Of a stretch of 64,000 nucleotides of DNA, positions 17,777-35,591 are shown piece after piece. Source of the stretch: Paraburkholderia caballeronis (GTDB lineage Bacteria; Pseudomonadota; Gammaproteobacteria; Burkholderiales; Burkholderiaceae). The position numbers and the translations under genes are program-made. The notes beneath the pieces are model-generated. The model did not search any database. It was given only the letters and a program-made list of their open reading frames with translations, and was not told the DNA's origin. The stretch covers positions 2,604,001 through 2,668,000 of the forward strand of contig NZ_FNSR01000001.1 in the NCBI RefSeq assembly GCF_900104845.1, read 5' to 3'. How positions within the stretch are numbered: position 1 is the stretch's first letter; each line of letters begins with the position of its first letter.

Positions 17777-18187
17777 CTATTCGTACGTGCGGATGATCGA
17801 GTGCGTGGACACGCGCGCGACTTCCGGCTGCGCCTGCAGATAATCGCGCATCGCATGCACGTCGGCGGCGGTCTCGGCCTCGGTCCAGATGAACAGATCG
17901 GAACTGCCGGTCACCGACCACGCCTTGTTGAACGGATGCGAAGCGCGGAACCTCGGCACCAGCACTTCGCAGGTGCCGGCCGAGCGCATCGCGATCTCGA
18001 ACAGCACCGGCCACGGCTTGCGCTTCAGCGTGACGCCGAACGACGCGATCTCACCGCTCGCGACGAGCGCGTCGATCCGGCTCATCACCGCGACCCGCGA
18101 CCGGTGTACCCGTTTGCCGATTTCCGTCGCGGACATTCTGGAGTCCGTGCCGAGCAAGGCGATGATCTGCCGGTCTATCGCGTCCAT
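17777..18187 (-). CDS. Lrp/AsnC family transcriptional regulator
   Basis: A 136-residue Lrp/AsnC protein. An N-terminal HTH (MDAIDRQIIALLGTDSRM, then EIGKRVHRSRVAVMSRIDAL) is followed by a RAM-type effector domain (about 60-136). The start at 18187 gives the canonical N-terminus; an in-frame extension to 18280 has no similarity. It lies 225 bases upstream of an amino acid permease gene on the same strand, which suggests amino-acid-responsive control of that transporter. The length is slightly shorter than the usual 150-160 residues. Confidence 0.85.
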   Translation of the reverse strand: MDAIDRQIIALLGTDSRMSATEIGKRVHRSRVAVMSRIDALVASGEIASFGVTLKRKPWPVLFEIAMRSAGTCEVLVPRFRASHPFNKAWSVTGSSDLFIWTEAETAADVHAMRDYLQAQPEVARVSTHSIIRTYE

Positions 18188-18374
18188 GCGTGGTCGAGCC
18201 GTGGGCTGAAAGAGGAATTGAACGGGAAACGCGGCGCACGCGGGCCGCGTCGCCGCCGGCTCCGCACGACGCGGCGGCACTGCGCGCCGCGCCCGCGAGA
18301 TCGAAGGCCGTACGATACCGCGTTCCGCGGCGAATCAGGGAGTCTCGACCGGTCCGTGACCGGTGTTGTCGCCG

Positions 18375-19313
18375 TTATCGCCGCGCGGCGGCGCGCCGTT
18401 GCAGCAGCGTGTCGACGAGCGCTGGCGACACGTAGTGCGGCCCGTCGAACAGATACACGCGATAACCGCGATACGCGTCGAGCTGCGGCCCGAGTTCGTC
18501 GGCGGTCGCCGCGCGGAAACCGCCGCCTTCCTTTGGCCTGAACGCTTCCGCGATGATCCGCACCCGGCGGCGGCCGAGCCGTGTCGCGAGCGCGTCCGCA
18601 TACTCGCGCGCGGCGGCCGGCCCGCGTGCATAGACCCCGCAGCCGTCCTGCAACAGCACGCCGACGTCGCGCGGCAGCCAGCCGGCGAGCCACGCGGCGA
18701 GCGCGTCGCCGCCGACGTTGCCGTTGTCGTACACGCTGATCCACAGCGGACGCGGCAGCCGCGCCAGCAGCGGCGCGAGCTTCGGCGCGTCGGTCCACGT
18801 CGGATCGACCTCGACCGGAAAATACCAGCCGGTGACGTGCACCGGCGGCCGCACGGCCGCGATCCTCAGCGACCGCTCGACCAGTTCGGCGACGTTCGCG
18901 CGCGCCTTCCGTTCGTCCGAATAACCGGCCAGCCCGACGATCACGCCGCGCGCCCACGGCTCGTTCGCGATCCTCACCCAGTCGGGCTGGCGCGGCGCGG
19001 GCAGCCCGGCGCCGGCGACGAACGCGACGTCGTCCACCGCCGTCCATTGCAGCAGCAGTTCGTTCACGCCGAGCCGGTCCCAGTCGCCGTGCACGTCGAG
19101 CCGGTCGTTCGACAGCTGCCACGCGACGCCCTGCGCCAATGCGTCCGCATGGGCGGGAACCTGCAACGTGCAGCCGGCCGCCGCGGCCATCGCAAGCGCG
19201 CTCGCGAGCATCCGCAACGCCGGCGCGAGGCACGATGTAAGCGATGTACGCGCGCCGCGCCACCGCCGCAAAAGCCCCGCTCCGCCGACCCGACCTGCAA
19301 CGCTCCCCGCCAT
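18375..19313 (-). CDS. YbcH-like predicted lipoprotein of the NfrA/NfrB locus
   Basis: A 312-residue exported protein. An arginine-rich N-region and a hydrophobic stretch end in AAAAGC near residue 48, a possible lipobox. The body looks like a TIM-barrel glycan-active fold of the DUF4434 kind: VTGWYFPVEVDPTW near 155, WISVYDNGNVGGDAL near 190, YLFDGPHYVSP near the end. E. coli carries ybcH next to nfrA, so the position supports a role in processing or binding the secreted glycan. The ATG at 19313 follows GAAGGAGAT. Activity is not shown. Confidence 0.65.
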   Translation of the reverse strand: MAGSVAGRVGGAGLLRRWRGARTSLTSCLAPALRMLASALAMAAAAGCTLQVPAHADALAQGVAWQLSNDRLDVHGDWDRLGVNELLLQWTAVDDVAFVAGAGLPAPRQPDWVRIANEPWARGVIVGLAGYSDERKARANVAELVERSLRIAAVRPPVHVTGWYFPVEVDPTWTDAPKLAPLLARLPRPLWISVYDNGNVGGDALAAWLAGWLPRDVGVLLQDGCGVYARGPAAAREYADALATRLGRRRVRIIAEAFRPKEGGGFRAATADELGPQLDAYRGYRVYLFDGPHYVSPALVDTLLQRRAAARR

Positions 19314-19352
19314 CGTCCCGATCTCCTTCGCACCAGGCAGCGCGATCGCCCG

Positions 19353-21848
19353 TCAATACGACAGCACCGTGCCGAAAAACACGCCGCCGCCGCGCCCGTC
19401 GCCAGTGATTCGCCAGCGATACTGCACCGACACGTCGATGTACGAGCGCGGCGAATCGTAGAAGCTGTCGCGGAACCAGTAGCGCGACGACACGCCGATG
19501 CCGATCCCGACCGGAATGCTGTGATCGATGCTCGAATCGTAGTCCGCGCCGATCACGCCATACGGAAACACGGTGAGCTTCGGGCTGATCCGGTCGAGCC
19601 GGTACGTGCGGCCCGCCTCGAAATAGGCGGTCCCGTAGTTCCAGCCGTTGCTCACGTAGTGGCCGACTTCCGCATAGTCCTGCACGGTCCACCACGACGG
19701 CACGTCGAGCCGCCGCTCCGTGCCGAAACCGCCCGAATACGCAAGCCGCGCGAGCCAGTCGGAGGGCGCGTGCGAGCCGATCGGAATCAGCCGCTCGAAC
19801 GCGACGATCGCGTTCACCGTCTCGAACGGCTTTGCGCGCGCGCCGATCGCGCCGAGCGCGGTCGAGATGCCGCTCGGCGCGGTGCCGCCCGCGCCGAAGT
19901 CCTGATAGGCCCGCGCATAGACCTCGAACATCCGCTCGCCCAGCGAGCCGAACGGCCGCCAGTAGGCTTCGAGGCCGGTCTGCCAGCTGTTGTAGGTGCC
20001 CGGCGCGGTGCCGGTCGCGACGCCCGGCTGCAACCCCGCGCCGCGATAGTTCAGCGACGCGATGAAACCCCAACTGCGCGTGACGTCCGCGTGCGCGTTG
20101 CGCAGGTCCTCCAGTTGCAGCAGGGTCGCGGGCGCCACGCCGTCCGGCGGCGACGCGCCGTGGTCGATCGCGCGCGCGAAGTAACCCGCGGCGGGCGCGT
20201 CGGCATGCGCGTGAAACGCGGCATAACCCGCATCGGCCGTCGCGGCCGGCGGCAGTTCGCCGGCCGCGTCCGCCTGCGCGAAATACGCGAGCGAGCGGCG
20301 GTCGTCGCCCGCGCGCTGCGCGACGTACGCGGCCTGCAACGGCGGCGCGCCGTCGAGCAGGCCCGCGTCGAGCGCCGCGCGCGCCTGCGCCTTTGCGCCG
20401 GCCATGTCGCCGGCGGCGACGAGCGCATCGACCAGTTCGATGCGCCGCTCGGGGCTGCGCGGACTCGCGGCGACCGCCTCGCGCGCATACGCGACCGCCG
20501 CCGCGTGGTCGCCGCGCTGCGCGGCGAGGATCGACTTGCGCCGCGCGGCGAAACCCGGATCGGCCGCATAGACGTCGCACGCGGCGCCGTACGCATCGAC
20601 GATGCAGTCGAACACCGGACGCGCGGCGATCGCGATGTCCACCGGCTGCGGCGCGTTTTCGCGCTGCCCGGCCACAGCGAGCCGCTCGCGCGCGTCGAAA
20701 CGGCGGCTCGCGATCAGCGCGTCGGTGTCGTCGCCGGCCGGCTTCAGCGGCGCGAGCGCGTCGAGCGCGCGCTGCGGCTCGCCGGCCGCGGTCCACACAT
20801 CCGCGACGATCGCGCGTGCAACGCGCTGGTCGCGCTGCGACGCGTCCGCCGCCTGCAACGCACGGGAGAAGTCGGCTTCGGCGTCGTCGAAGCGGCCCTG
20901 CGCGGCGCGCGCATAACCGCGCACGACATAAGGCATCAGCACGGGCTGCACGCCGGCTCCGATCACGTCGGTCGCCGCCTGCTCCAGCGCGCGCATGTCG
21001 CGCGACGCGGCGAGCGCATCGAACAGTTGCAGCCGGTAGCCAAGCCGGTCCGGCGCATAGGCGATCGCGTCGCGCGCGTGCGCGGCGGCCTGTGCGAAGT
21101 CGCCCGCATCGCGCGCCTTCTGCGCGGCGGCCGCGGACTTCGGCGCAAGCTCCTCGCCGACGAACGCGCGACGGCGGCGCAGTTCGTCGTGGTCGCCGAA
21201 ACGCTTCGTCGCGTCGAGCGCCGCTTGCCACGCATCGTCGGGACGGCCCGCCGCGCTGGCCGCGTCGATCGCGAGCAGTTGCAGGCGCAGCACGTCGGGA
21301 CGCAACGCGATCGCCGCGTTCGCGTCGCGCTCCGCGCCGGCGTAGTCGCGGCTCGCGTAGGCCGCATACGCGCGTTGCGCGAGCACGTAGGCCTCGCCAG
21401 TCAGATTGTCCGGTGATCCCGCGCCGGGTTTGGTCGATGGCGTCGCGCCGCCGCGCGATGGAGACGCGCGCGGTGCGGCCGTCGCCGCTGCGATCTGCGC
21501 ATCGATCTGCCGGCGACGCGCAACCAGCGACGCGTCCGGACCGACGTCGCGCTGCGCGTCGGCAAGCGTGCGGCTCGCATCGCCCCAGCGGCGCTGCGCG
21601 GCCTGCGCGTTCGCGAGCAGCAGGCGCAGCGACGCGAGGTCCGGGCGCTGGCGGATCGCCTCGCGCGCGTAGCGTTCGGCGGCCGCGTAGTCGTGGCGCG
21701 CGTATGCGTCGTAACCCTGCTGCGCGACGCGATAGGCGGCGCCGGTCAGCGGCAGCGGCAACGTGCCCGCGGCCGGCGCGGCTTCGGCAAACTGCGCATG
21801 CAGGCCGAGGCTCGCGCATAACGCGGCAAGCGCGAGCGAACGGCGCAT
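19353..21848 (-). CDS. nfrA: Outer-membrane protein NfrA-like (phage N4 receptor type)
   Basis: An 831-residue exported protein. A signal peptide (MRRSLALAALCASLGLHAQFAEA) is followed by many TPR-like repeats (about 30-560, with Y-x-x-A-x-x-D-Y-x-x-A-E patterns). A C-terminal beta-barrel-like domain (about 590-831) ends in the pattern of the NfrA C-terminal family. In E. coli NfrA is the outer-membrane component of a c-di-GMP-controlled exopolysaccharide pathway and the N4 adsorption receptor. Here it would export or anchor the glycan made by NfrB. The frame stays open upstream to 22106; the start is set at the signal peptide. Confidence 0.85.
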   Translation of the reverse strand: MRRSLALAALCASLGLHAQFAEAAPAAGTLPLPLTGAAYRVAQQGYDAYARHDYAAAERYAREAIRQRPDLASLRLLLANAQAAQRRWGDASRTLADAQRDVGPDASLVARRRQIDAQIAAATAAPRASPSRGGATPSTKPGAGSPDNLTGEAYVLAQRAYAAYASRDYAGAERDANAAIALRPDVLRLQLLAIDAASAAGRPDDAWQAALDATKRFGDHDELRRRRAFVGEELAPKSAAAAQKARDAGDFAQAAAHARDAIAYAPDRLGYRLQLFDALAASRDMRALEQAATDVIGAGVQPVLMPYVVRGYARAAQGRFDDAEADFSRALQAADASQRDQRVARAIVADVWTAAGEPQRALDALAPLKPAGDDTDALIASRRFDARERLAVAGQRENAPQPVDIAIAARPVFDCIVDAYGAACDVYAADPGFAARRKSILAAQRGDHAAAVAYAREAVAASPRSPERRIELVDALVAAGDMAGAKAQARAALDAGLLDGAPPLQAAYVAQRAGDDRRSLAYFAQADAAGELPPAATADAGYAAFHAHADAPAAGYFARAIDHGASPPDGVAPATLLQLEDLRNAHADVTRSWGFIASLNYRGAGLQPGVATGTAPGTYNSWQTGLEAYWRPFGSLGERMFEVYARAYQDFGAGGTAPSGISTALGAIGARAKPFETVNAIVAFERLIPIGSHAPSDWLARLAYSGGFGTERRLDVPSWWTVQDYAEVGHYVSNGWNYGTAYFEAGRTYRLDRISPKLTVFPYGVIGADYDSSIDHSIPVGIGIGVSSRYWFRDSFYDSPRSYIDVSVQYRWRITGDGRGGGVFFGTVLSY

Positions 21849-22102
21849 CGGCAAGCGGTTCGACGACGGGTCACGGACCACCACACGCACGCGACCGCCG
21901 TGCGTGTCGTGCGTGTCGTGCGGATAACCCACTCCCCGCGCATCAAGCTCATCGCCCGACTGGCCCGCACGGAACCCGGCGCCTGCGTCGATCGCCCTAT
22001 CCGCATCATCACCCTCGCACGCCCAAGCCGAATCGCGCCGATCCACGCCCGCGACCCCGCCAGCCCCATCGCCGCCCGCCAACGACCCAACCGGCGGCGC
22101 CG
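21849..22102 (-). other. Leader between nfrB and nfrA
   Basis: 254 bases remain open in the nfrA frame and begin at an ATGA overlap with the nfrB stop. The translation has no domain and weaker third-position GC bias, and would bury the signal peptide. A 9-base repeat (CGTGTCGTG, twice) lies near 21900-21920. Treated as untranslated. Confidence 0.5.
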
Positions 22103-24256
22103 TCATCGCGACATCACCGGTTCGCCCATCCGGCGCTTCTGTTCATCGATCGCGTCCTTCAGCGCGTCGGCAGTGATGACGCCGAGCGCGACCATGTAGT
22201 CGCCGATGCGCCCATGATCCGCCGGCCGGTAACGCAGCAGTGCATCCTCGAAGTCCTTGCGGCTCACCGCGCCGCGCTCGATCAGCAGGTCGCCTAGCAG
22301 CGGCACCGCGCGCGACGCGGCCGTCTCGTCGTCGGGCGTCCCCGCCACCGGCACGCCGCGCAAAATCCGCAAGCCGGCCGCGATCTCGCCCTCGCGCACG
22401 ATCCGCTGCACGGCCGGCCGCTTCAGCGCGGCCTGCAGCGTCGCGAACGCATCGTCGGGCAGCGGGCTCGCGGTCAGCAGCACCGCATGGCCGTTGCCGT
22501 CGTCGCCATACGGCAGCACGCGGTTGCGCACGACCAGTTCGGGCGGCAGTTGCGACGCGTTGGCCCGCAGCCGCGCTTCGTCCAGATGGTCGCGCGGCAG
22601 GTCCGACTGGAACGCGATCGCCTCCGCGAGCGTCTCCTCGTCGAGCCAGCCGTGCGCAAGCAGCACGCGGCCGAGCGGCGCCTGCCCCGCATGCTCGTCG
22701 CCGAGCGCGCGCGCGAGCTTCTCCTCGTCGATCGCCTGCCACGACACCAGCAGTTCGCCGAGCCGCTGCCGCCGGTCGGTGAAGCCGTCCGACGACGGGA
22801 AGTCGTGCATCGTCTTGTCCCACGCGAGCCGCTTGCCGGTCGCGAGATGCACGAGGAACATCCGCCATGCGCGCGCGACCGCCATGAAATTCACGAAGTT
22901 GCCGATCACCATCCGCGGCACCGCGAGCACGCCGTGCTCCCAGCCGTACAGCCGCGTGACGAAATACACGCGTTGCAGCACCCGCAACGACAACGCGATG
23001 CCGTTCGCCCACAACACGAAGTACAGGAACCGCGAGTCGATGAACGGCGACGCGATCAGTTGCGGCATCAGCCCGAGCGTGTCCGCGAACGCGAACAGGA
23101 TGAACTGCACGAGCACGACATACGCGACGATCCCGACGAACGACGTGACGATCCCCTTGCGGTCGCGCGCGAGCAGATAGCGGTTCGCGAGCGACCCGCG
23201 CCAGCCGGTCTGCTGCCACCCTTGCAGGCCGATGCCGAGGGTCCAGCGCGCGCGCTGCCGGTACGCGGTGCGAAACGTGTCGGGGAAAAATTCGCGCACG
23301 CACAGCGGCATCGTCAGCGTGACGTCGCGCTCGCGGCCGAAGCCGAACCACGACTTGCGGCGCGTCGAGAACTGCACCGGAAAACGCGCGAAGATCGAGT
23401 TCATCCCCATCCGGCCGAGCCGTTCACCGACGTCGTAGTCCTCGGTCAGCGTTTCGGTGTTGAACGGCTGGTTGTTCGTCTGTTCCGCGAGGCCGATCAG
23501 CGCGCGCCGCGAGAAGCAGGTGCCGACGCCGGCCGACGGCACCGCGCCCGCGATGCTCTCGCGCACGACGAGATCCTTCGCGTGCCATTCCGCGAACTCG
23601 TCCATGTAGGTGCCGGCGACGAGTTCGTACCAGTCGCGCTCCAGCGACGCGACCGGCAACTGGATCATGTCCTTGCGCGGCAGCAGGTAGTTGAAGAAGC
23701 GCAGTTCGAGCGGATGCAGCACGTCCTCGCTGTCGTGCAGGATCACGCCGGCGAACTCGACGCCGGTCTCCTGCTCCAGCCGGAAGATCGCCTGGATGAT
23801 CCAGTTCAGGCAGTCGGCCTTGCAGGTCGGGCCGTCGTGCGGCACTTCCACGCGATGCAGCTGCTTGTAGCGCCGGCGCATCCGCTCGACCTCGGCGATG
23901 GTCGGCGCGTCGTTCTGGTAGGTGCCGACGAACACCACGTAGTTCGTGTAGTCGAGCACGCGCACGAGGTCGGTGACCATCGACGCGATCACGTCGTCCT
24001 CCTTCCACGCGGGCACCATGATCGCGAGCGGCTGCTGCTCGCGCGCGTACAGTTCCTCCGGGCGCAGCGGCCGGTAGCGGCGCGCAACCGTGAAATAGCG
24101 GTACGTCGTGCGGACCCAGTACCACGCGTCGATGAACAGGTCGTCGGCGCTCGACAGCAGGATCAGCACCGCGACCCCCATCGCGACGTATTCCATCCCG
24201 TGGTAGTAGTGGCCGAGCAGATAACCGCTCCACCATTTGAGCGTGTCGAACGTCAC
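22103..24256 (-). CDS. nfrB: Glycosyltransferase NfrB-like with C-terminal MshEN c-di-GMP-binding repeats
   Basis: A 717-residue inner-membrane processive family-2 glycosyltransferase. N-terminal hydrophobic helices precede the GT domain with DSED (175-178), TED (271-273) and QRARW (334-338), the metal, base and product-binding motifs of GT2 synthases. Several membrane helices follow (about 365-470). The C-terminus has two MshEN-like segments: RLG...LG at 498-529 and LLGDLL...RIGDYM at 653-688. In E. coli NfrB the MshEN domain binds c-di-GMP and switches the enzyme on. The GTG start lies 2 bases after the bcsB-like stop. Confidence 0.9.
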   Translation of the reverse strand: MTFDTLKWWSGYLLGHYYHGMEYVAMGVAVLILLSSADDLFIDAWYWVRTTYRYFTVARRYRPLRPEELYAREQQPLAIMVPAWKEDDVIASMVTDLVRVLDYTNYVVFVGTYQNDAPTIAEVERMRRRYKQLHRVEVPHDGPTCKADCLNWIIQAIFRLEQETGVEFAGVILHDSEDVLHPLELRFFNYLLPRKDMIQLPVASLERDWYELVAGTYMDEFAEWHAKDLVVRESIAGAVPSAGVGTCFSRRALIGLAEQTNNQPFNTETLTEDYDVGERLGRMGMNSIFARFPVQFSTRRKSWFGFGRERDVTLTMPLCVREFFPDTFRTAYRQRARWTLGIGLQGWQQTGWRGSLANRYLLARDRKGIVTSFVGIVAYVVLVQFILFAFADTLGLMPQLIASPFIDSRFLYFVLWANGIALSLRVLQRVYFVTRLYGWEHGVLAVPRMVIGNFVNFMAVARAWRMFLVHLATGKRLAWDKTMHDFPSSDGFTDRRQRLGELLVSWQAIDEEKLARALGDEHAGQAPLGRVLLAHGWLDEETLAEAIAFQSDLPRDHLDEARLRANASQLPPELVVRNRVLPYGDDGNGHAVLLTASPLPDDAFATLQAALKRPAVQRIVREGEIAAGLRILRGVPVAGTPDDETAASRAVPLLGDLLIERGAVSRKDFEDALLRYRPADHGRIGDYMVALGVITADALKDAIDEQKRRMGEPVMSR

Positions 24257-24258
24257 GG

Positions 24259-26715
24259 TCAGCCCTGCCTGTCGTGCGGAGGGGTGTCGGGGGGGCCTTC
24301 GCCGGGTTTGCCGGGTTTGCCCGATGTGCCTGGCGCTCCGGGTTCAGCCGGCGATCCGGACGACTCCGCCGCTCCCCGCGTCGCGGCACCGCCATCCGGT
24401 CCCGGCGGCGGGGGCGGAGCCGATGAAGCCGATGAACCCGACGAACCCGACGCAGGCGGCGGCTCGCCCGGCCCGCCGTTCTTCTCGCGACGCCGCCTGC
24501 GCGCCGCGTTCGCCGCGAAGATCAGCAGCAGCAGCACGACGATCGCGAGCGCCGGCATGCCCCACGCGGACCAGTGCTGCGTGAGCCACGCGCGCTGCCG
24601 GTCCTCCGGCGGCACGCCGCCCGGCCGCTGCGTGTCGAACGACTTCAGCGCGCCGGTCGCATCGACGACGACGATGTCGCCGCTCAACAGTTGCAGCGTC
24701 GCCGGCAGCACTGGCGCGGCGGCGCCGACGGTCCGGTACAGCACGCCCGTCGTGCCGCCGGAATGCACGACTTCGAGCACGCCGAGCCGCGTGAGGCCCG
24801 CGAGGTCCGCGAGCGGCGCGCCGGAGCGGCCCTTGATCGTCAGCCGGCCGCCGTCGAACGTCGCCGGCCCGGACAGATCGGTGACGGCGACGTCGGCCGC
24901 GAGGAACGGCCCCGCCGGCTGCGCGGCCTGGCCGCCGGCGACGACCGCCAGCGTCGCGCGCGTCGGCGCGATGCCGACCGCGTTCGCGAGCCGCGCGACG
25001 CGCGGCAGCGAGTCGGCCGGGTTCGCGAGATACGCGTCCGGCACCAGCAGGCTCGCGCTCTGCGCGTAACGAACGATCATCCCGGTGAAGTTGTCTTCGA
25101 GGCGGCCTTCGCCGAGCACCAGATGGCTGCCGGGCAGCACCGCCGCCGGGTAGCCGGCCGCGCGCGGCTGGCAGCCGCCTTCCGGCTGGCGCTGGAACAG
25201 CACGCGCAACTGGTTCACCGAGCCGAGCGCATAACCGGGGATGGCCGCGCTCACGCGCTGCGGGCGGCCGTCGGTCGACAGCAGCCGCGAGCCGATCAGC
25301 ACGCCGTTGAAAAAGATCGACGCGGTCTGCGCGTTGCGCACCGACGCGGCGGCGGCCGCCAGATCGAGCACGACCGCGCGCGGCACCTTGCCGTTGCCGG
25401 ACACCGCCGCGAGATCGAACGTCGCGTCCCACGACGCGCTCGTCAGCACGTCGAGCGTGCGCGGCGCGCCGCCGACGAGCGACAGCGCGAGGCGGTCCGT
25501 GTCGCCGCCCGCACTCAGGTTCGGCGCGCGGTCGAGCGCATGCACGACGAGCCGGTTCGATACGTCGAGCGGCGTCCACGTGCGCGACAGCGCGGCGACG
25601 CCGGCCGTGTCGCCGACCACGACGACCGGCTGCCCGCCGAGCCGCGCGACGCCGACGTCGCCCGCGACTGGCGCGCCGCCGCCGAGCGGGCCGGCCGCGC
25701 CGCTGCGCCATGCGTCGAACGCGGCGGCCGCGTCCGGCGAGACGCCGGCCACTTCCGCGCGCAACGCGTCGAATGCCTCGCCAAGCCGCGCGCGCAGCGC
25801 GTCGTCCGCGATCACGACGTTCGGCGCGAACGCGCCGGCCGGCGCGAGCGCGACCAGCGCGCCGAGTTCGGCCGGGTTCGCGAGCCTGTGCTGGCCGCCG
25901 GACGCGAGCGCGGCGAACGCCGGCACGGCCTGCAACGCGGCCGGCACCGACGCGCCCGCGAGGCTCACCGTGTCGCCGACCGCCGGCACGACCTGCACGA
26001 CCGGCTCCGCGCCCGCGCGCATCAGCAGCGACTCGACGCGCCACGCGACGTCGTACGCGGGTGCGCCGAGCCGGCCGCCGCCGACCGCGACCACCGGCTT
26101 CGGCGGCAGCGCGCTCCATGCGCCGCGCACGTCGCCGATCGCGGACGTGTCGTACTGGTACGTGAGCCGCGACGTCGGCGCGATGCGCCACAGGTTGCCG
26201 ATCGCGGTCTGGTCCGCGCAGACGTTGTCGTCGATCACCGACGACCACTGCACGCCGACGCGCACGAACCCGGACGGCCGCGGCGAGCCGTCGACGCCGA
26301 TGTTCACCGCGCCGTCGCCCTGCGCGTCGGTCACGCTGCGCGCGAGCACCGGCGAGCCGTCGAGCGACAGCACGAAGGTCGTGCGGCCGCCGTCGCCGTG
26401 CAGGTAACCGCCGTCGAGTTGCAGCGTCGCGTTGCTGACCGGCAGGCCGAGCGGCACCGGGAAATAAAGCTCCTGGCTCGCGTCCGGCGCACGCAGCAGG
26501 ATCGGCTCGCGCACGCCGAGGTCCGCGAGCGACACCGTGCGCGATTCGACGCGGCCCGCGCCCAGTTGCGCGAACGCGGCCGCGAGATCGCCGGGCGCGG
26601 CGTGCGCCGCCGGCATCGTCAGGATGGCGGCGAGAACGGCAAACACGGTGGAAAACACGGCGCGAAACGTCGTGCGCCGCGCTCGCGGCCTCGCGCAGGC
26701 GGCGGCGATCCGCAT
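24259..26715 (-). CDS. BcsB-like periplasmic subunit of a polysaccharide synthase
   Basis: About 818 residues. A signal peptide ending AAHA, a large periplasmic body, one transmembrane helix (MPALAIVVLLLLIFAA) and a Pro/Gly/Ser-rich cytoplasmic tail. The body has the BcsB pattern of cellulose synthase regulatory subunits: jelly-roll carbohydrate-binding segments with Y-F-P-V-P and F-x-x-x-D-x-N-x-L-R-V-L-F-like strands. BcsB guides the nascent glycan across the periplasm. ATG at 26715 is used; ATG at 26793 adds 26 residues before the signal. It is coupled to nfrB (2-base gap). 26716-26951 upstream shows no gene. Confidence 0.75.
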   Translation of the reverse strand: MRIAAACARPRARRTTFRAVFSTVFAVLAAILTMPAAHAAPGDLAAAFAQLGAGRVESRTVSLADLGVREPILLRAPDASQELYFPVPLGLPVSNATLQLDGGYLHGDGGRTTFVLSLDGSPVLARSVTDAQGDGAVNIGVDGSPRPSGFVRVGVQWSSVIDDNVCADQTAIGNLWRIAPTSRLTYQYDTSAIGDVRGAWSALPPKPVVAVGGGRLGAPAYDVAWRVESLLMRAGAEPVVQVVPAVGDTVSLAGASVPAALQAVPAFAALASGGQHRLANPAELGALVALAPAGAFAPNVVIADDALRARLGEAFDALRAEVAGVSPDAAAAFDAWRSGAAGPLGGGAPVAGDVGVARLGGQPVVVVGDTAGVAALSRTWTPLDVSNRLVVHALDRAPNLSAGGDTDRLALSLVGGAPRTLDVLTSASWDATFDLAAVSGNGKVPRAVVLDLAAAAASVRNAQTASIFFNGVLIGSRLLSTDGRPQRVSAAIPGYALGSVNQLRVLFQRQPEGGCQPRAAGYPAAVLPGSHLVLGEGRLEDNFTGMIVRYAQSASLLVPDAYLANPADSLPRVARLANAVGIAPTRATLAVVAGGQAAQPAGPFLAADVAVTDLSGPATFDGGRLTIKGRSGAPLADLAGLTRLGVLEVVHSGGTTGVLYRTVGAAAPVLPATLQLLSGDIVVVDATGALKSFDTQRPGGVPPEDRQRAWLTQHWSAWGMPALAIVVLLLLIFAANAARRRRREKNGGPGEPPPASGSSGSSASSAPPPPPGPDGGAATRGAAESSGSPAEPGAPGTSGKPGKPGEGPPDTPPHDRQG

Positions 26716-26951
26716 GTCGCCCACAGCCGGAACAACCCGTTCGAACGCGCGGCGCGGCGCAGTGAGATTGGAGGTCACGTCTTTATGTCCCATGTTGTCG
26801 GCACGCGCGGCCGCGCGTGCTGCCCGCGAAGCACGGCACGCTTCCCGGTCGCCGGGAAAGCAGCCGTCACACCGATCGATCACTGCGGACTGCAAGACTG
26901 CCTTTACGAACGAACCCACACGACCAGCGGCGGCCGACGTCCACCGCCGCA

Positions 26952-28148
26952 TCAATCCTCGACCGGCGGCGCGGTGCGTCCGGGATGGCGATAGCCCGGC
27001 AACACGCGGCTCGCAAACGGCTCGAACGGCTTGCCGGTCAGCGCGGCGACGATCCGTTCGGACGCGTGGCCGTCGCCGTACGGATTCACGCGCCGCGCGA
27101 ACGCGCGCCGCTCCGCTTCGTCGTCCACGAGTTGCAGCACCGACTGCTGAATCGCGTTGCGATCGGTGCCGACGAGCCGCACGGTCCCCGCCGCGAGCGC
27201 CTCCGGCCGTTCGGTCACGTCGCGCATCACGAGCACCGGCTTGCCGAGCGCGGGCGCTTCCTCCTGCACGCCGCCCGAGTCGGTCAGCACGATCGACGCG
27301 CGCTGCATCAGGCGCACGAACTCCGGGTAGTCGAGCGGATCGGTCAGATAGACATCGTTCAGGTGTCCGAGCGTCCCGAGCACCGGGCCGCGCACGTTCG
27401 GATTCAGGTGGACCGGATAGACGATCTGCATCTTGCCGGTCTGCGCGAGCGCGGCGAGCGCCGCGCAGATGTTCGCAAAACCCTCGCCGAAACTCTCGCG
27501 GCGATGGCCGGTCACGAGCAGCAGCGGCCGGCCGCGATCGGGCGGCTCCAGATACGGGAACTGCGCGTCGATGCGTGCGCGCATCGGCGCGTCGCCGTCG
27601 AGCCGCGCGCACATCAGATGCAGCGCGTCGATCACCGTGTTGCCGGTGACGATCACGCGGCCGCCGAGCGCCTCCGCTTCGAGATTCGCCTGCGAACTCG
27701 CGGTCGGCGCGAACAGCAGGTCGCCGATCACGTCGACGACGCGCCGGTTCATCTCCTCGGGCCAGGGTTCGTACAGGTTGCCGGTGCGCAGTCCGGCTTC
27801 GACGTGACCGACCGGAATCCGCCGATGGAACGCGGCGAGCGCGGCCGCCATGCTGGTCAGCGTGTCGCCATGGACGAGCACGCGGTCGGGCCGCTCCGTT
27901 TCGAGCACGCCGTCGATGCCGGCGAAGAGCCGCGACGCGAGACCGTTCAGCGTCTGGTTCGCGGTCATCGCGGCGAGGTTGTGGTTGGGAACGACGCCGA
28001 ACAGGTCGAGCACCTGCTGCAACATCGTCTGATGCTGGCCCGTCACGCAGACGACCGACTGCACGTCGCCGTCGGCTTCGAGCCGCTTCACGAGCGGCAC
28101 CATCTTGATCGCTTCGGGCCGCGTTCCGAATATCGACAGGATACGCAC
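26952..28148 (-). CDS. wecB: UDP-N-acetylglucosamine 2-epimerase (non-hydrolysing)
   Basis: A 398-residue cytosolic enzyme that converts UDP-GlcNAc to UDP-ManNAc. GTRPEAIKM near residue 7, HVEAGLRTGN near 125 and LTDSGGVQEE near 290 are the family hallmarks. The GTG at 28148 is chosen because AAGG lies 8 bases upstream and the protein then starts VRILSIFGTRPE as in homologues; an ATG at 28211 is also in frame. First gene of the nfr-type locus, so it supplies the sugar nucleotide. E. coli NfrA/NfrB function also needs WecB. Confidence 0.93.
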   Translation of the reverse strand: MRILSIFGTRPEAIKMVPLVKRLEADGDVQSVVCVTGQHQTMLQQVLDLFGVVPNHNLAAMTANQTLNGLASRLFAGIDGVLETERPDRVLVHGDTLTSMAAALAAFHRRIPVGHVEAGLRTGNLYEPWPEEMNRRVVDVIGDLLFAPTASSQANLEAEALGGRVIVTGNTVIDALHLMCARLDGDAPMRARIDAQFPYLEPPDRGRPLLLVTGHRRESFGEGFANICAALAALAQTGKMQIVYPVHLNPNVRGPVLGTLGHLNDVYLTDPLDYPEFVRLMQRASIVLTDSGGVQEEAPALGKPVLVMRDVTERPEALAAGTVRLVGTDRNAIQQSVLQLVDDEAERRAFARRVNPYGDGHASERIVAALTGKPFEPFASRVLPGYRHPGRTAPPVED

Positions 28149-33101: not shown

Positions 33102-35438
33102 TTATAGTTCGAGCACCAGCCGCTTCCCCTTCGCGCGCGAACAGCAGGTCATCATCCGCGTGTTCGCGTCGCGTTCCGCGCGGGTCAGCACGACGTCGCG
33201 ATGATCGACGTCGCCGCCGAGCACGCGCACCTCGCACGATCCGCACAGCCCTTCCTCGCAGTCGCTCTGCACGTCGATGTTCGCGCGGCGCAGCGCGTCG
33301 AGCACCGTCTGGTCCGCCGCGACGTTCAGCACGAGCCCCGAGTCCTTCAGTTCGACTTCGAATGCGTGCTCGTGCGCCGGATCGAGCGTGCCGGCGCTCG
33401 CCGCGAAGTGCTCGACGCGCAGCGCGTCGTCGGGCCACGCGCCGCTTTGGGCCTGCAATGCGTCGAGCATCCGCGCCGGGCCGCACGCATACACGCGGGT
33501 CCGTTCGTCGACCCGCAGCGCCGCGAAGTCGTTGCGCGCGCCTTCGTCCGACACGTACAGATGCAGCCGTTCGCCATGCAGCGCGCGCAACGCGTCGACC
33601 AGCGCCATCGACGCGCGCGAGCGGCCGCTGTAGTGCAGTTCGTAGTCGATGCCGAGTTCGCGCGCGCGGCGCGCCATCGCGCTGACCGGCGTGATGCCGA
33701 TGCCGCCCGCAATGAATAGCGCGCGCCGGCAGGTCTCGTCGAGCCGGAAGTGGTTGCGCGGCCCGCGCAGCTTCAGGCGCGCGCCGGGCCGCAACGCATC
33801 GTGTATCCACGCGGACCCGCCGCGGCTGTGCGGCTCGCGCAGCACCGCGATCTCGAACGCGCGCGTATCGGCCGGATCGCCGCACAGCGAGTATTGGCGC
33901 GACAGGCCGCCATCGCCGCATTCGATATCGACGTGCGCGCCCGGCGCCCAGCGCGGCAGTGCCGCGCCGTCGGGCGCGACGAGCCGCAGCCGCACGATCC
34001 CTTCGGCTTCCGCGTCGATCCGCTCGACGAGCACCGGGCGGCTCAACGCATGCGCGGACGGCTCGCCGATCCGCACCGGCGCGCGCGCGTCGAGCAGCGC
34101 GCGGTTCGTGCGCTCCGGATTGCGCGCCGGGTCCCACTCGACCCACAGATGCTCCGGTCCGCGAAACGACGTGTTCGGGACGTACGTGAAGTCCTGGGCC
34201 GCGAGCCGCAGGTGCGGCAGCCGGCGCGTCAGTTCTTCGAGAAAGATCTGCATCTCCATGCGCGCGAGGTTCTTGCCCATGCACTGATGCGCGCCGTAGC
34301 CGAACGTCAGCTGATCGCTCGCGTTGTCGCGGCGGATGTCGAACAGGTCCGCGTCCGCGAAGTGGCGCTCGTCGTGATTCGCGGACGACGTGACGATCAG
34401 CAGCTTCGAGCCGGCCGGAATGTCGATGCCGCCGATCTGCACGTCCTTCGTCGCCAGCCGCCGCCACGCGGCGATCGAGCCGTTGTGGCGCAGGCATTCC
34501 TCGACCGCGTTCGGGATCAGCCCCGGGTCGTCGCACAACTCGCGCCATGCGCGCGGGTGCTGGAGCAGCAGCTTGATCGCGTTCGCCGACGCGTTCGCGG
34601 TCGTCTCGTGCGCGGCGACGATGCCGGCCATCATCATCGAATGCAGATACGAGTCGGTGACGACGTCCGGATGCAACTTCTGCTGCCGGATGCCGTACTG
34701 CATCCAGCCTGGGCCGTCCGGGTGCTCGCGCATCCGGTCGAGCACCTTGCCCGCGAACTGCCAGAAGTGGCCGACCGCGTGCGCGACCTCGACCTGCTCT
34801 TCCGGCTTCGGCCGCCCCCACGTGTTGACCGTGTGCGCGATCGAGTAGCGGCGCAGCATCGCCATGTCCTCTTCCGGCACGCCGAGAAAATGCAGCGCGA
34901 CCGTGAGCGGCACTTCCCACAGCAACTGGTCGACGAGATCCGCGCGGCCGTCGTCGATGAAACGGTCCACGTATTCGCGCGCGAGCCGCCGCACCATCGG
35001 CTCGTGATGCTTCAGATGCTCCGGCGTGAACGGCTCCATCAGCACGCGGCGGCGCGGCATGTGCGCGGGTTCGTCCTCGTTCACCAGCGTGCGGTTCATC
35101 GCGTAGCCGTACGACGCGAGCACCGCGTTCGCCTCGGGGCCGGTCGGCGTGATCTTTTCCAGCGCGATCGACGGCGAGAACGTCAGGTTGTCGCGAAAGA
35201 TCGCCTTGATGTCGTCGTAGCGCGTGACGACCCAGTAGCCCAGTTGCGGGCTGTAGAACACCGGCTCCTGCTCGCGCGCCCAGCGCACGTAGTCGGGCGG
35301 GTCCTGCTGGTAGCCGTCGCTGAACGGGTCGAACGCGGCCGCGCCCGCGCTGACCGGGCACGCGGACGCGGCAGCCGCCGCCGCGCCGTGCGGGAACGGG
35401 CAGCGCGCGGCGGCGGGTGAAGAAGCGGCTTCGCTCAT
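33102..35438 (-). CDS. Self-sufficient cytochrome P450 / reductase fusion (CYP116B type)
   Basis: A 778-residue P450RhF-like monooxygenase. The N-terminal P450 domain (about 30-440) has the I-helix A-x-E-T-T element (AAHETT), EECLR as E-x-x-R, and heme loop FGYGAHQCMG with the axial Cys386. The FMN/NADH phthalate-dioxygenase-reductase-like domain (about 460-680) has RQYSLCG and GGIGITP. A C-terminal plant-type [2Fe-2S] ferredoxin has C-E-E-G-L-C-G-S-C and a distal Cys. It needs no separate redox partner. ATG at 35438 follows GGAG. Divergent from an IclR regulator; substrate unknown. Confidence 0.95.
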   Translation of the reverse strand: MSEAASSPAAARCPFPHGAAAAAASACPVSAGAAAFDPFSDGYQQDPPDYVRWAREQEPVFYSPQLGYWVVTRYDDIKAIFRDNLTFSPSIALEKITPTGPEANAVLASYGYAMNRTLVNEDEPAHMPRRRVLMEPFTPEHLKHHEPMVRRLAREYVDRFIDDGRADLVDQLLWEVPLTVALHFLGVPEEDMAMLRRYSIAHTVNTWGRPKPEEQVEVAHAVGHFWQFAGKVLDRMREHPDGPGWMQYGIRQQKLHPDVVTDSYLHSMMMAGIVAAHETTANASANAIKLLLQHPRAWRELCDDPGLIPNAVEECLRHNGSIAAWRRLATKDVQIGGIDIPAGSKLLIVTSSANHDERHFADADLFDIRRDNASDQLTFGYGAHQCMGKNLARMEMQIFLEELTRRLPHLRLAAQDFTYVPNTSFRGPEHLWVEWDPARNPERTNRALLDARAPVRIGEPSAHALSRPVLVERIDAEAEGIVRLRLVAPDGAALPRWAPGAHVDIECGDGGLSRQYSLCGDPADTRAFEIAVLREPHSRGGSAWIHDALRPGARLKLRGPRNHFRLDETCRRALFIAGGIGITPVSAMARRARELGIDYELHYSGRSRASMALVDALRALHGERLHLYVSDEGARNDFAALRVDERTRVYACGPARMLDALQAQSGAWPDDALRVEHFAASAGTLDPAHEHAFEVELKDSGLVLNVAADQTVLDALRRANIDVQSDCEEGLCGSCEVRVLGGDVDHRDVVLTRAERDANTRMMTCCSRAKGKRLVLEL

Positions 35439-35463
35439 CGGGTCATCTCCGGCATCGTTCATT

Positions 35464-35493
35464 TTGCGTAAATGTAGTACGCGTTGCGTAAAT
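35464..35493. promoter_or_regulatory. Candidate IclR-type operator between P450 and regulator
   Basis: TTGCGTAAAT occurs at 35464-35473 and again at 35484-35493, 20 bases apart (about two turns). GCGTA and TACGC also form an inverted pair between them. The site lies 26 bases from the P450 start and about 100 from the regulator start. Likely bound by the adjacent IclR protein; inferred. Confidence 0.6.
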
Positions 35494-35591
35494 CGCGGAT
35501 TGGGGTTAACCTCGAACGCACCCCGCCGTTCCCCAAAAAGTTCCCCCACAAGCCCCACTGCGCGGCCCTATGCGCCGCCCGGAGCCGCCCG

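Follow-up and report, generated by a model that had tools for sequence, protein, structure and literature searches.

The locus described here is a five-gene operon related to the nfrBA genes of Escherichia coli and lies in a 64-kb stretch of Paraburkholderia caballeronis DNA (the window, that is, the whole stretch analysed). This window derives from contig C1 of a genome assembled in three contigs (7.1 Mb), and the products of its bcsB-like and ybcH-like genes show 98% identity to P. caballeronis proteins. On the basis of open reading frames and family profiles, the gene order is wecB, bcsB-like, nfrB, nfrA and ybcH-like, all on the minus strand (window 28148-18375). The leading gene, wecB (28148-26952, 398 amino acids (aa), GTG start at 28148), encodes a non-hydrolysing UDP-N-acetylglucosamine (UDP-GlcNAc) 2-epimerase that matches TIGR00236 with 437 bits (cut-off 210) and PF02350 with 369 bits. 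It is separated by 236 bases, provided that bcsB-like starts at the ATG at 26715, from the bcsB-like gene (26715-24259, 818 aa; PF03170 31.9 bits, cut-off 21), which is followed after 2 bases by nfrB (24256-22103, 717 aa; NF012033 1076 bits, cut-off 537). An in-frame ATG of nfrA is overlapped by the nfrB stop; the gene extends from 22106, or from a signal-peptide ATG at 21848, to 19353, and its product matches PF13283 (NfrA_C) with 168 bits (cut-off 25) and TPR_19 in four stretches. The last gene, ybcH-like (19313-18375, 312 aa), scores 43 bits with NF007404 (cut-off 344) and 17.9 bits with DUF4434 (cut-off 30). Family support is weakest for bcsB-like and ybcH-like. These positions and scores confirmed the identities, order and strand of the five genes as given in the original prediction, which was made from the sequence without database searches, as well as the tight spacing between bcsB-like and nfrB.

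The window NfrB, a predicted processive glycosyltransferase, combines a GT2 domain with a C-terminal MshEN domain and has 39% identity to E. coli NfrB. The GT2 active-site residues (D169, TED and QxxRW in E. coli numbering) were identical in all 17 aligned NfrB sequences; by alignment, E. coli D169, D267 and W330 correspond to D175, D273 and W338. The original prediction pointed to the cyclic di-GMP (c-di-GMP) control of the E. coli pathway that serves as phage N4 receptor, and the MshEN domain, which carries the c-di-GMP motif, exceeded the cut-offs of both PF05157 (26.9 bits, cut-off 23.1) and NF053729 (87 bits, cut-off 38). From residue ∼495 on, the protein also matches the solved MshEN domain of MshE (5htl) and other c-di-GMP and PilB/PilF N-terminal domains; PilZ was absent from its Pfam matches. 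Six of the seven MshEN residues tested in E. coli are unchanged (L490, G491, L505, L509, L518 and G519 are L499, G500, L514, L518, L528 and G529 here), the exception being L537, which is I547. In E. coli, activity was lost or reduced when those NfrB residues were changed, according to the consulted parts of two reports (PMC8669469, PMC8669472). As judged by its family scores, the window protein, which reaches NF012033 but not NF008411, is a sister subtype of E. coli NfrB.

The bcsB-like product, a predicted periplasmic subunit, begins with a signal sequence and has a single membrane helix towards its C-terminus (hydrophobic stretch 714-741, model helix 715-746). In structural comparison, its predicted model shows the BcsB fold along most of its length, a feature whose absence had been named in advance as refuting the assignment. 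It did not reach the NCBIfam BcsB subfamily NF008330 (13.5 bits, cut-off 945), and a separate strong BcsB (721 bits) is present on contig C2 of the same genome. Behind the membrane helix lies a low-complexity tail rich in Pro, Gly and Ser (window 24259-24470, minus strand), which is disordered in the model; most of 30 aligned relatives are shorter.

To what extent this subunit belongs with NfrB was evident from the loci most similar to the window, the best 80 of 363 confirmed nfrB relatives from a scan: a bcsB-like gene lies upstream of nfrB on the same strand in all 80. In one of them (L070, a Herminiimonas relative) the gene is apparently split over two frames. A family survey covered 200 Burkholderiaceae genomes, with at most five candidates scored per genome and gaps measured between profile ends rather than gene ends. 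It yielded 78 NfrB in 65 genomes and 42 BcsB-like proteins in 41 genomes, and every one of the 42 bcsB-like genes adjoins an nfrB. Profile scores of BcsB-paired NfrB (957-1296 bits) and unpaired NfrB (644-840 bits) did not overlap, a split that is partly due to the NfrB profile, whose source sequences were paired NfrB and that of E. coli. The BcsB profile at E 1e-5 found no match in the 14 BcsB-less loci that were fetched, the remaining 22 of 36 being judged from the genome search alone. Both NfrB types occur together in 11 genomes.

A similar division was seen in a quick NfrB tree of 54 rows (all 19 without BcsB, and 35 with BcsB hand-picked from 109 collected), which carries only approximate likelihood ratio test (SH-aLRT) support, is drawn with midpoint rooting and has its long branches flagged. 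In this sampled tree 34 of the 35 BcsB-paired NfrB formed one group (SH-aLRT 99) apart from E. coli NfrB, which grouped with the unpaired L127. The one other paired row, L157, is placed far away; its BcsB is nearer the Pfam model (140 bits), and its locus also holds WecB and a TPR protein. The pairing label needs two changes on the tree, and the pairing may either be older than the lineage split or have arisen at least twice. As far as these sequence comparisons go, the BcsB partner is the mark of an NfrB lineage and not a one-off. The original prediction had treated the subunit as an unusual addition; it is instead the rule in this lineage, and earlier papers already describe a BcsB homolog together with nfr and wecB genes, so that the gene combination is neither rare nor new. 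The five-gene order surveyed among the 80 nearest loci held for bcsB-like at nfrB throughout, but not for ybcH, which directly follows nfrA in 46, lies far after it in 16 and before it in 7 (in 11, one of the two genes was not found).

Beyond the family, NfrB was found in 7 of 274 genomes of the class, the own genome included, which is a thin sample. The BcsB profile matched six of the same genomes, again including the own one; the five others pair BcsB with a different GT2, and a match to the BcsB profile therefore does not by itself indicate an Nfr locus. At loci L148-L152 a BcsB-like gene adjoins a different GT2; in L148, the one checked, this GT2 contains a weakly MshEN-like segment, and downstream there is a CotH kinase-like gene. 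Such loci may represent another glycan system that combines BcsB and GT2 with a link to c-di-GMP. A DUF2334 gene, which we take to encode a polysaccharide-deacetylase-like protein, is found close to the distant nfrB loci L157 and L153.

The operon's wecB is the sole one of the genome, which bears out its proposed role as probable source of UDP-N-acetylmannosamine (UDP-ManNAc). Among the 80 nearest loci wecB was found in 70, in two as fragments (L030, L065), and four further loci lacking it end at a contig edge. Where the two systems coexist (11 genomes), a separate wecB lies no more than 5 kb from each of the 22 nfr loci, and the WecB of the two locus types fell into two score sets (434-453 vs 505-520 bits). 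This linkage extends the rule of Junkermeier and Hengge, as given in the consulted text of PMC8669469, and supports, without proving, UDP-ManNAc as the donor. In E. coli, wecB is required and wecC and wecA are not (PMC8669469, PMC8669472, in the parts consulted). The glycan would be ManNAc-based, as is likewise presumed in E. coli.

According to the family matches, NfrA consists of a periplasmic TPR domain and the outer-membrane barrel domain NfrA_C; the 168-bit PF13283 match provides the C-terminal similarity without which the original prediction was to fall. The YbcH-like protein has 25% identity to E. coli YbcH, which has been described as a putative scaffold. Its predicted model is a TIM barrel, a fold shared with the hydrolase domain of PgaB (GH153) and with BT_0435 (DUF4434), to neither of which a PDB search found sequence similarity; that search gave no relevant solved relative. 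Since sequence searches yielded no such relative, the fold assignments of both the BcsB-like and the YbcH-like protein rest on predicted models. Over 26 YbcH sequences, including that of E. coli, 30 columns are invariant. Among them are four acidic residues, E168, D170, D223 and E256, located where strands 4, 6 and 7 end; along the GWY...E.D and QDG stretches, too, none of the 26 sequences shows any substitution. We predict from the model that this TIM barrel is of DUF4434 type, resembles glycoside hydrolases and binds or cleaves glycan in the periplasm. A literature search returned no paper combining YbcH with glycoside hydrolase, DUF4434 not having been a search term. In 16 of the 80 relatives a large stretch separates nfrA from ybcH, and all three that were checked contain AlgX-like and MBOAT O-acetylation genes there; none lies between nfrA and ybcH in the window. 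AlgX/MBOAT-type O-acetylation genes were also reported for Achromobacter and Simplicispira loci (PMC8669469, PMC8669472, parts consulted).

Several known systems resemble the operon. The E. coli K-12 NGR (nfrBA-ybcH, with nfrC = wecB) shares NfrB with GT2 and MshEN, NfrA with TPR and NfrA_C, YbcH and the WecB requirement; however, a bcsB-like gene is missing from that operon, wecB belongs to the enterobacterial common antigen (ECA) operon and E. coli NfrB stands elsewhere in the tree. As described in the consulted text of a 2021 paper (PMC8669472), the Achromobacter xylosoxidans cluster unites nfrA, nfrB, wecB and a BcsB homolog, and differs in its periplasmic O-acetyltransferases, which have no counterpart between nfrA and ybcH in the window. 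The Acinetobacter PGR, compared via the text of its 2025 report alone (PMC12507263, in part), has an NfrB-like PgrC, a BcsB-like PgrD, a WecB-like PgrF, the porin PgrG and PgrE with a fold like the PgaB C-terminus, whereas its degenerate cyclase PgrA and gene order set it apart. According to the same text, deletion of its BcsB homolog pgrD abolishes adsorption of phage StAb3. The PGR resembles the distant locus L157 with its BcsB, WecB, TPR protein and NfrB. Finally, the Bcs cellulose synthase likewise places a membrane-anchored BcsB fold beside a c-di-GMP-controlled GT2, but the window synthase is NfrB with MshEN rather than BcsA with PilZ, the exporter is NfrA, and PF03170 is the sole BcsB sequence match.

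On the basis of these data, we consider it quite probable that the locus belongs to the BcsB-containing Nfr lineage and directs the synthase-dependent production of an exopolysaccharide under c-di-GMP regulation, working as follows. WecB, judging from its family function, would convert UDP-GlcNAc to UDP-ManNAc. By inference from E. coli, NfrB would act at the inner membrane, polymerising a glycan that contains ManNAc once c-di-GMP binds MshEN. The BcsB-like protein, anchored beside NfrB by its single C-terminal helix, may, like BcsB alongside BcsA, receive or guide the emerging chain on the periplasmic side, and NfrA, with the domains observed, would take it through the TPR-lined periplasm and the outer-membrane barrel. 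Within the periplasm, the chain may be bound or trimmed by the YbcH-like TIM barrel. A surface glycan is the probable product and, as suggested by E. coli and Acinetobacter, a possible receptor of N4-like or other phages. The family matches, the conservation of the tested residues, the BcsB fold, NfrA_C, the single linked wecB, the conserved pairing and the pgrD deletion phenotype speak for this assignment.

Several observations weigh against it. The PF03170 match covers only residues 58-192 of 818, and the BcsB-like protein matched no BcsB of known structure in single-sequence or profile searches. NfrB remains below the E. coli-type equivalog NF008411 (676 bits vs cut-off 1170). Within the stretch available upstream of bcsB, wecB is absent from six of the 80 nearest loci and fragmentary in two; in favour of the assignment, all eight genomes concerned carry at least one full-length wecB, and all 26 further genomes tested have a wecB. 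As in E. coli, 36 of the 78 family NfrB have no BcsB-like gene, so the subunit is dispensable in some Nfr systems. No GGDEF gene, and hence no linked cyclase for c-di-GMP control, lies within the window; 32 GGDEF matches were found elsewhere in the genome.

Membership in PF03170, together with the fact that E. coli-type Nfr functions without BcsB (according to the literature, as far as consulted), could mean that bcsB-like is a stray or duplicated gene of the cellulose system and that the adjacent nfr genes function without it. We regard this as very improbable: the genome has its own strong BcsB on contig C2, the pairing is kept in the 80 nearest loci and 42 of 42 family cases, it corresponds to a single clade of NfrB in the sampled tree, and it recurs in the distant L157. 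It is also unlikely, if less so, that UDP-ManNAc is merely an intermediate, or that another sugar such as GlcNAc is polymerised while WecB serves a different surface polymer. A single genomic wecB leading this operon, a separate wecB at both Nfr loci of all 11 two-system genomes and the E. coli requirement for wecB but not wecC or wecA (in the reports as consulted) argue for ManNAc, even though NfrB has a weak similarity to PgaC (TIGR03937 27 bits, far under cut-off) and the literature consulted, itself seen in part, gives no glycan structure for this species, E. coli NGR or Acinetobacter PGR.

The role of YbcH is more evenly balanced. The reading proposed for E. coli, in which YbcH scaffolds or binds the chain without catalytic activity and is no hydrolase, has a chance that falls somewhat short of even. 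The complete invariance of the four acidic residues and of the two motif stretches exceeds what a scaffold would need, and a trimming role is equally compatible with the dispensability of YbcH for infection. A broader proposal, which is tentative and somewhat doubtful as a whole, is that two Nfr lineages exist, with and without a BcsB-like partner and each with its own WecB, so that one cell may make two non-interchangeable ManNAc-type glycans, and that the YbcH found in both would be a dedicated hydrolase trimming or releasing the glycan.

As for the surroundings of the operon, a gene for an Lrp/AsnC-type regulator (17777-18280) lies downstream of it. The gene at 33102-35558 (minus strand) is unrelated to the operon; it encodes a fusion of a cytochrome P450 with reductase and ferredoxin domains.

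In a literature search that was mostly not at full-text depth, no paper was recognised as describing the two-lineage split. New here are the two-lineage pattern, the two-system genomes with a wecB of their own at each locus and the prediction of YbcH as a hydrolase. Our data place a little-studied phage-receptor glycan pathway in Burkholderiaceae and their neighbours, and the two-lineage genomes offer natural material for asking whether BcsB alters the glycan made or its export. For the unexplained YbcH of E. coli they provide a prediction, namely a glycoside hydrolase; if this is true, the E. coli N4 receptor pathway would have a built-in, unrecognised hydrolase.
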